Shown: positions 5,244 to 10,209 of the stretch, piece by piece
Numbering within the stretch: position 1 is the stretch's first letter
Layout of the letters: every line of letters starts with the position of its first letter
Assembly: GCA_949288855.1 (NCBI GenBank)
Contig: CASELS010000003.1
Span: 1-64,000 of the forward strand
From: an uncultured Collinsella sp.
Lineage (GTDB): Bacteria > Actinomycetota > Coriobacteriia > Coriobacteriales > Coriobacteriaceae
Direction: 5' to 3'
DNA length: 64,000 nt
Position numbers and translations under genes: made by a program
Notes under the pieces: model-generated
Database searches by the model: none
The model's input: the letters and a program-made list of their open reading frames with translations, nothing else
What the model was told of the DNA's origin: nothing

Positions 5244-5319
5244 TGGTGGGCCCAGCAGGATTCGAACCTGCAACCCAGGGATTATGAGTCCCCTGCGCTA
5301 ACCGTTGCGCCATGAGCCC
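5244..5319 (-). tRNA. tRNA with CAT anticodon (Ile2 or elongator Met)
   Basis: Cloverleaf: acceptor GGGCTCA/TGGGCCC (one G-U), D arm GCGC/GCGC, anticodon stem GGGGA/TCCCT with loop CTCATAA, T arm GCAGG/CCTGC with TTCGAAT, discriminator A, encoded CCA. The CAT anticodon fits elongator tRNA-Met or the lysidine-modified tRNA-Ile2 that reads AUA. There is no mismatch at the end of the acceptor and no run of three G-C pairs in the anticodon stem as expected of initiator tRNA. Ile2 versus Met cannot be settled without a TilS-determinant comparison. Confidence 0.9.
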
Positions 5320-5354: not shown

Positions 5355-5368
5355 GCGGTTCACTTGGG

Positions 5369-5441
5369 TGGAGACGAGGGGGATCGAACCCCTGACCTCT
5401 TGACTGCCAGTCAAGCGCTCTCCCAGCTGAGCTACGCCCCC
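5369..5441 (-). tRNA. tRNA-Ala(GGC), copy 1
   Basis: Acceptor GGGGGCG/CGTCTCC (two G-U pairs), D arm GCTC/GAGC, anticodon stem CTTGA/TCAAG with loop CTGGCAG (anticodon GGC), T arm AGGGG/CCCCT with TTCGATC, discriminator A. The next bases are CCC, so the CCA is not encoded. The gene is identical to the copy at 5846-5918; the exact repeat spans 83 bp (5363-5445 and 5840-5922). Confidence 0.95.
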
Positions 5442-5457
5442 AAGCGGTGCGGGAAAT

Positions 5458-5831: not shown

Positions 5832-5845
5832 TGAAAAATCTTGGG

Positions 5846-5918
5846 TGGAGACGAGGGGGATCGAACCCCTGACCTCTTGACTGCCAGTCAAGCGCTCTCC
5901 CAGCTGAGCTACGCCCCC
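5846..5918 (-). tRNA. tRNA-Ala(GGC), copy 2
   Basis: Sequence identical to copy 1 (5369-5441): anticodon GGC in loop CTGGCAG, no encoded CCA (followed by CCC). It has its own promoter at 5934-5962 and its own terminator, so it is an independent unit. Confidence 0.95.
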
Positions 5919-5933
5919 AAGCAACGAGGAAAT

Positions 5934-8841: not shown

Positions 8842-10209
8842 CTACAGGATGAACCGGATGATATCTGCGCGGAGCAGGTAGATAAAGAGCGCACCGAACA
8901 GGGCGATGCCGATGTAGGAGAGCGCGGTCTGCACTTTTACCGAAAGCGGGCGGCGGATGACGGCCTGCACGATCTCGATCACGAGCTTGCCGCCATCGAG
9001 GGGCGGTATGGGCAGGAGGTTCATAAAGCCGAGCGAGAACGATATGAGGGCGGCCACGCTGAGGAACGTGGAGGCGCCGCTTTCCGCCGCAGCGGCGGCC
9101 ATGACGGAGATGCCCACCACCGAGGTGGAGCTGTCGAGGACCTCAAGCGTGCGCTGGGGGTTCACGAGCTGCATGATGGAATCGGCCGTGAGTGCAAGAT
9201 AAGACCAGGTCACACTTGCTGCCTGAGCGGGATTGAGGTGGACCGTCTCCTGCGGCGCGGTGATGCCGATGGCGTCGGCGCCCTCGGGGTCTATGGTCAC
9301 CGTGAGCTCTTTGCCGTCGCGGGCGAGGACCATGTCGAAGGGCTCGGACAGGTCGAGCGCGCCGATGATGTTTGCGATATCGGAGAAGCTGTCCGTGGTG
9401 GTTCCCGCAACAGAGAGGACGGTGTCCCCGGCCTCGATGCCGGCCGCTGCTGCCGGTGAGGCCGTCTCAACGGTTCCTATCGTGTTCACGTCCACGGTTG
9501 CGGTGACGCCCACAAACATGTAGATGGCCATAAGGAGCAGAAAGCCGGAGACGAGGTTCACCGCAACGCCTGCGACGAGGATGAACGCGCGGGCGAAGAA
9601 GCCTTTGCCCGCATAGGTATGGGAGCGCTCGCGCTCAAAGAAGGCATCCTCCCCCATCGGCGGCTCCCATGCCTCGCCGGAGCGAGTCGCCTCACCGCGC
9701 TTGAACTGCGCGCCATCAAGAAGCGTGGCTCCTGCCTTGTCGCGCGGAGCGGCCGCATAGGTCGAAGGGTAGTAGACGCCGGGCTTCTCGCCAGCCGCCA
9801 CATCGTACCTGCCCTCGATAGAGCCCCAGTCGAGGAGCTGCACACAGGCGGCGAGCGCGTCTTCCTCAGAGATGGAGAGCGCCTCGGAAAGCTCCGCGAC
9901 CGTTGCCGTGCCGCGGCGGTGCACCTCGGCAAGGACGCGCTTGGCGACATCGCTGTCGCCTTCGGGCTCCATGCCGCAGACCATGGCGTAGCCGCCGAGC
10001 AGAAGCGGCGTTACGCCGAACTTGGTACCGATACGGCGTGAGACGTGGTGGAGATTGAACCGGCAGGGCAGGCCGAGAAAGAACTCGGTGACGCGCACGC
10101 CGACGGCGCGCGATGCTAAGAAGTGCCCGCCCTCGTGCACAAACACGAGCGCGGACAACATGAGGAGACCCCAGAAGAGGGGTCGGATGATACCAAGGAG
10201 CGTCTCCAT
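8842..10209 (-). CDS. rseP: RseP-type site-2 membrane metalloprotease with an inserted winged-helix-like domain
   Basis: An intramembrane zinc protease of the site-2 family, which cleaves anti-sigma factors or signal-peptide remnants. The metal motif HEGGH is at residues 25-29 in the first membrane helix; the second motif, PPLDGG, ends near residue 407 in a C-terminal helix. A PDZ domain follows the helix at about 208-232. The region between GMEPEG (80) and AFFERE (189) is a roughly 110-residue insertion beginning with a winged-helix-like pattern (VAKRVLAEVHRRG, TVAELSEALSISEEDALAA, WGSIEGRY). At 455 residues it is longer than a typical 420-residue relative. It lies 27 bases after dxr in the lipid/isoprenoid operon. 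Confidence 0.92.
   Translation of the reverse strand: METLLGIIRPLFWGLLMLSALVFVHEGGHFLASRAVGVRVTEFFLGLPCRFNLHHVSRRIGTKFGVTPLLLGGYAMVCGMEPEGDSDVAKRVLAEVHRRGTATVAELSEALSISEEDALAACVQLLDWGSIEGRYDVAAGEKPGVYYPSTYAAAPRDKAGATLLDGAQFKRGEATRSGEAWEPPMGEDAFFERERSHTYAGKGFFARAFILVAGVAVNLVSGFLLLMAIYMFVGVTATVDVNTIGTVETASPAAAAGIEAGDTVLSVAGTTTDSFSDIANIIGALDLSEPFDMVLARDGKELTVTIDPEGADAIGITAPQETVHLNPAQAASVTWSYLALTADSIMQLVNPQRTLEVLDSSTSVVGISVMAAAAAESGASTFLSVAALISFSLGFMNLLPIPPLDGGKLVIEIVQAVIRRPLSVKVQTALSYIGIALFGALFIYLLRADIIRFIL

Follow-up and report, generated by a model that had tools for sequence, protein, structure and literature searches.

The analysed window is a stretch of 64,000 nucleotides from an uncultured Collinsella sp., and it carries rseP on the reverse strand at positions 8842–10209. 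The sequence of the 455-residue product identifies it as RseP, a group I site-2 protease: TIGR00054 scored 179.8 bits against a curated cut-off of 147.55, and PF02163 scored 144.8 bits against a cut-off of 27.2. The nearest named relatives were Collinsella records with 96–97% identity. As in the window, ispG was located downstream and dxr upstream of rseP at all 54 of the Coriobacteriia loci examined that were longer than 7 kb. Three tRNA genes, one tRNA-Met and two tRNA-Ala (GGC), were located downstream of proS at positions 5244–5319, 5365–5442 and 5842–5919 of the window. A second, short M50 match was present elsewhere in the same genome (G000:C2:764-1297; loci L002 and L003), in an open frame of 252 aa.

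The window RseP keeps the usual order of HEGGH, reentrant loop with GGY, TM2, PDZ and LDGG. The HEGGH zinc site (residues 25–29, positions 10123–10137) was invariant in an alignment of 49 sequences. The membrane-reentrant beta-loop region comprised residues 62–79 (positions 9973–10026, with GGY at residues 72–74) in the alignments, and the insertion described below follows directly after it. The PDZ domain covered residues 236–323 approximately (positions 9241–9504), as judged from the strands of the model and from PF17820, which matched residues 244–282 with 34.4 bits (cut-off 27). In the third zinc-ligand motif, LDGG (residues 404–407, positions 8989–9000), D405, G406 and G407 were invariant in the same 49 sequences and L404 was nearly so. 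All of these features lie on the reverse strand. The matches of the whole RseP model in the PDB were RasP and the RseP proteins of E. coli, K. koreensis and A. aeolicus, and the model aligned with entries 9a6w, 7w6x and 9j83. The putative function of the window protein is the intramembrane cleavage of substrates.

The Insertion in RseP and Its Predicted Fold

Between the substrate-binding reentrant beta-loop and TM2, the window RseP contained about 115 residues, while roughly 8–22 residues filled the same slot in three aligned relatives that are not members of the class (L064, L066 and L079). The alignments and the fold of residues 80–195 alone placed the insertion at residues 82–195 (positions 9625–9966, reverse strand), with a winged-helix core at residues 86–153 (positions 9751–9954, reverse strand; H1, S1, H2, H3, S2, wing and S3) according to DSSP on the AlphaFold2 model and to the structural and profile matches. 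A sequence-only reading of this DNA had proposed a winged-helix-like insertion at positions 9640–9969, or residues 81–190 of the open reading frame 10209–8842. The AlphaFold2 models and the alignments bore this out, with the limits corrected to about 82–195 for the insertion and about 86–153 for the winged helix. The insertion in RseP was thus confirmed as a real feature.

The AlphaFold2 model of the whole protein was built from the 49-sequence alignment and had a mean pLDDT of 89.6; by blocks of ten residues, pLDDT was 95–97 for residues 91–130 and 81–87 for the wing (residues 131–150). DSSP assigned helices to residues 86–99, 104–111 and 115–127 and strands to residues 101–103, 131–134 and 150–153. 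This order, H1-S1-H2-H3-S2-wing-S3, is that of a winged helix-turn-helix in the predicted models and in their structural matches. When residues 80–195 were folded alone, the same fold was obtained with a pLDDT of 93.4 and a pTM of 0.86. The extension beyond the winged helix (residues 154–195) was ordered in the whole-protein model, with a pLDDT of 92–95, and was shorter in the alignments in many other families. In the established topology of RseP, the segment between TM1 and TM2 is on the cytosolic side of the membrane, opposite the PDZ domain. Since the insert lies between TM1 and TM2, it is placed on the cytosolic side.

Foldseek with the lone insert returned no match at E ≤ 0.001 (best 0.022, probability 0.99). 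The rows listed were mostly MarR, ROK, heat-shock and other regulators or proteins bearing a winged helix-turn-helix, and a few were not. The best VIA-align match of the lone insert was a Z-alpha domain, with Z 7.7 and 1.7 Å over 61 residues, closely followed by entries for Mlc, MarR-type, ArsR-type and IclR-type proteins and VPS36. Among 999 chains, 573 reached Z 5 and none reached Z 8. VIA Z values of 7–8 are usual even where no true relative exists and may reflect only a common arrangement, so that a test on sequence profiles matters here. The structural matches were not used to exclude any family.

In hhalign, 41 inserts gave 96.5% (E 8.5e-10) against 20 DeoR domains, 94.0% (1.4e-7) against 20 MarR domains and 0.2% against 10 PDZ domains as a control. 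In the Pfam scan, the window insert was below every HTH cut-off, including those of the MarR and DeoR DNA-binding families: MarR_2 reached 15.6 bits against a cut-off of 27, and HTH_DeoR was not listed. When the 41 inserts were scanned singly at E 0.1, MarR_2 was matched by 14 and TrmB by 9, with a best value of 0.00021; MarR_2 was also matched by 6 of 28 longer insert pieces, with a best value of 7.9e-6. The single insert found no match when searched against the sequences of solved structures. The best profile match among the searches with the insert was DDRGK1, which was weak (sequence-level value 0.0012, best-domain value 1.1) and was also found in a fusion with UFL1. A disordered loop or an enlarged PDZ-like fold, either of which would have spoken against the first reading, was seen in neither model, and the PDZ control in hhalign was negative. 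A confident match to a winged helix-turn-helix, named beforehand as support, was found with AlphaFold2 in the protein and alone, in the structural matches and in hhalign. By prediction, the fold of the insert is a winged helix-turn-helix.

Distribution of the Insert

The insert was present at the slot in all 61 non-redundant rows of the alignment, the window included, and, as read by eye, in each of 20 additional genomes representing 17 families that do not belong to the order. The alignment was made without L001, L082 and L060, in which the frame was not continuous, and without L064–L081; L002, L003, L059, L076, L116 and L121 yielded neither a match nor an open reading frame that could be used. 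The helix-turn-helix pattern was less clear by eye in L057, L123, L127, L128 and L130, and long extra loops were present in the inserts of L124, L126 and L128. By its presence across these rows and genomes, the insert is more than a product of chance.

A profile of the insert plus its flanks matched 286 of 296 Coriobacteriia genomes, 282 of them at E ≤ 1.4e-18, which is the conservation in other Coriobacteriia that the first reading had named as support; positions along the protein were taken from the matches listed, which cover part of the 296 genomes. Among the ten genomes without a profile match, six were also without any RseP match, G134 had only a C-terminal piece of RseP, and the others were G407, G493 and G539. 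The four weaker matches (1.1e-6 to 4.1e-8) were all from family f13, and in these four genomes a short linker replaces the insert in RseP (L170–L173; genera g49, g58 and g64). The profile matched three genomes of g50, another genus of family f13, at 3.6e-42 or better. Because these four f13 genomes have RseP without the domain, RseP as such can do without it. The insert marks the class Coriobacteriia, whose members live in the gut and in the environment, and from these alignments it looks ancestral to the class, with loss in f13.

Outside the class, 225 genomes of the phylum sample gave six continuous profile matches (41.3–48.9 bits) among the matches listed; the rest of the 225 gave only flank or partial matches among those listed. 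In other Actinomycetota RseP proteins (L160–L165 and L167–L169), the slot held different, mostly helical-looking inserts by eye; L166 had no usable match in this comparison. From the phylum of a Clostridia record, 249 genomes gave five continuous matches at E ≤ 1e-6, again with another insert. In these RseP/RasP-type proteins of Bacillota (L234–L238), the insertion slot is the same as in the window, but the insert was beta-rich by eye and showed no helix-turn-helix pattern. No match at E ≤ 1e-6 was found in 151 genomes from the phylum of a Chloroflexi record, a set that had no positive control, and nine single genomes at other loci gave flank or partial matches, or none. The insert was also considered as a widespread bacterial feature, which was rejected, as the matched genomes outside the class carry other inserts when the alignments are read by eye. 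This comparison spans few phyla, and a winged helix may occur in RseP elsewhere.

PDZ Presence and Sequence Constraint

The insert was kept without a Pfam PDZ match in four of six other class members scanned (L131, L132, L062 and L063), two of them from family f2, presumably Eggerthellaceae, and two from other Coriobacteriia records. Both domains were found in the remaining two. The f13 proteins showed the reverse, with a PDZ domain, as judged by eye, and no insert. The PDZ domain and the insert vary independently.

In five of five pairs, dN of the insert (0.03–0.37) was below dS (0.30–1.46). In the three more distant pairs, dN was 0.31–0.37 for the insert and 0.53–0.59 for the PDZ domain. In the two close pairs, dN of the insert and the PDZ domain was 0.039 and 0.062, and 0.030 and 0.021, respectively; the closest pair (L004) was the one with the higher value for the insert. 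Within the near group, which comprised 32 of the 61 rows, identity averaged 0.49 for the insert core, 0.56 for its tail, 0.37 for the PDZ domain and 0.64–0.80 for the membrane core.

Charge of the Recognition Helix

Charge was compared over an almost ungapped alignment of the inserts of 78 RseP homologues with 21 DeoR and 25 MarR domains taken from these genomes and from related ones. L124, L126 and L128 were left out, and partial, near-identical and edge loci were dropped from the original 30 DeoR and 30 MarR loci. The recognition-helix segment used was residues 114–126 (SEEDALAACVQLL; positions 9832–9870, reverse strand). Over its first seven positions, mean net charge was −2.38 for RseP, +1.19 for DeoR and +0.36 for MarR, and the mean numbers of basic and acidic residues were 0.49 and 2.87 for RseP, 1.90 and 0.71 for DeoR, and 1.12 and 0.76 for MarR, respectively. 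Over all 13 positions, mean net charge was −2.71, −0.81 and 0.04 for RseP, DeoR and MarR, respectively, for homologues that are not independent of one another. The strand and the start of the wing had mean net charges of −1.03, +1.33 and +0.52 in the same order. The basic start of the recognition helix seen in MarR and DeoR is thus absent from the RseP insert. Directly after the helix, Trp128 (positions 9826–9828, reverse strand) was matched by Trp in 69 of 78 RseP homologues, and the DeoR and MarR controls mostly had polar residues or Ala in this column.

DNA binding by the insert is disfavoured because acidic residues prevail in the first half of the recognition helix, and it appears unlikely from these sequences; nucleic-acid binding through another face of the insert is possible. 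An acidic helix would be expected in a winged helix whose role is to contact proteins, although this is not proof. The sequence-only reading had allowed for a module that binds either nucleic acid or protein. Its first option is weakened by the acidic helix, and protein binding, to a putative partner, is the better guess.

Discussion

The protease of the window is of an already known kind, and what appears new in it is the built-in winged helix. HExxH, LDG, a reentrant GGY loop and a PDZ domain are shared with the group I site-2 proteases E. coli RseP, A. aeolicus RseP and B. subtilis RasP; relative to these, the window protein has one PDZ domain and adds, before TM2, a segment of about 115 residues that contains a winged helix. 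It has the fold of the MarR, DeoR and TrmB winged helices and aligns almost without gaps across H1-turn-H2-turn-H3-S2, but it differs from them in its Pfam scores below the cut-offs, in the acidic start of its recognition helix and in being embedded in a membrane protease. Group III site-2 proteases carry their CBS domain at the C-terminus, in the cytosol. PDZ and CBS are the accessory domains named in a passage of a review of bacterial site-2 proteases, and the group III enzymes SpoIVFB and mjS2P, which also have an accessory domain, are described there with CBS and without PDZ (PMC10202637). Searches of an open-access library listed no paper describing a winged-helix insert in RseP.

A winged-helix domain was probably inserted into the group I site-2 protease at an early stage in the evolution of the class, on the cytosolic side and a few residues past the substrate-binding strand of the reentrant loop. 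The reentrant loop of E. coli RseP is a substrate-binding element, with residues 69 and 71 in contact with substrates (PMC4597795). Aligned through the shared GGY, these residues correspond to residues 74 and 76 of the window protein, and the insert starts about six residues later. Because the insert adjoins, on the cytosolic side, the strand that contacts substrates, we propose that it is a docking or gating module. With its acidic rather than basic recognition helix, the winged helix would act on proteins and would hold a cytosolic partner at the entry to the active site, adding a cytosolic check to the selection of substrates. The partner could be the cytosolic part of the substrate or an accessory protein such as EcsA for RasP; part of one report states that RasP function requires EcsA (PMC10128001). 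Among the matches, DDRGK1 and the ESCRT-II protein VPS36 are precedents, the former from the profile searches and the latter from the structural ones. For FeoC, another winged helix-turn-helix protein, a review states that binding to DNA has yet to be shown (PMC7762939). The predicted fold and the conservation were shown by computation; the step from these to a class-early docking or gating module with a putative partner is one to which we give an even chance.

The main rival to docking or gating is an internal lid or brace, in which the winged helix packs on the cytosolic gate of the protease itself and stabilises or gates it with no partner, and we consider this somewhat unlikely but the most serious of the alternatives. 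Docking and an intramolecular role would be expected to leave similar traces. In favour of a lid or brace, the insert adjoins the substrate-binding loop, the extension at residues 154–195 is ordered in the whole-protein model, and the conserved Trp may point towards the protease. It fits less well that the domain folds alone with similar confidence, that in the near group the membrane core is better conserved than the insert, and that the domain is missing in the four f13 genomes. Those four genomes without any insert would also suit a slot that merely tolerates insertions, with the insert fixed by chance as a passenger that has no function of its own, and so would the different insertions with which other lineages fill the slot. 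Retention throughout the class sample, dN well below dS and the four proteins that keep the insert without a PDZ match argue against such a passenger, which we regard as improbable.

A tether to the chromosome, by which the winged helix would bind DNA and bring RseP or a locus to the membrane, is suggested by the DeoR and MarR profile matches and by the regulator helix-turn-helix families MarR_2 and TrmB, which were those most often touched by the inserts. We rate this the least probable reading, in view of the scarcity of basic and the excess of acidic residues at the start of the recognition helix relative to DeoR and MarR, and of the acidic strand and wing start.

On the docking or gating reading, the acidic winged helix may further serve as a built-in cytosolic receptor. 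It would bind a soluble adaptor or those segments of membrane-tethered regulators that reach into the cytosol, and would license their cleavage from inside, so that substrates would be chosen in the cytosol as well as outside, or, in lineages without PDZ, instead of outside. We offer this more specific version tentatively. Three Sigma70_r4_2 matches were found in the genome of the window. The classical anti-sigma link, zf-HC2, had no match in this genome, which is 89% complete, and was positive in only 3 of 14 control genomes, so that its absence carries little weight.

To our knowledge, control of site-2 proteases from the cytosolic side is poorly understood. The findings also point to the loop ahead of TM2 in RseP/RasP proteases as a site at which individual lineages carry cytosolic inserts of their own. 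In Coriobacteriia, the slot holds a discrete, removable domain at the substrate gate that is kept across the class, is missing in a few genomes and is kept without PDZ in some, and cytosolic control would thereby become directly testable.
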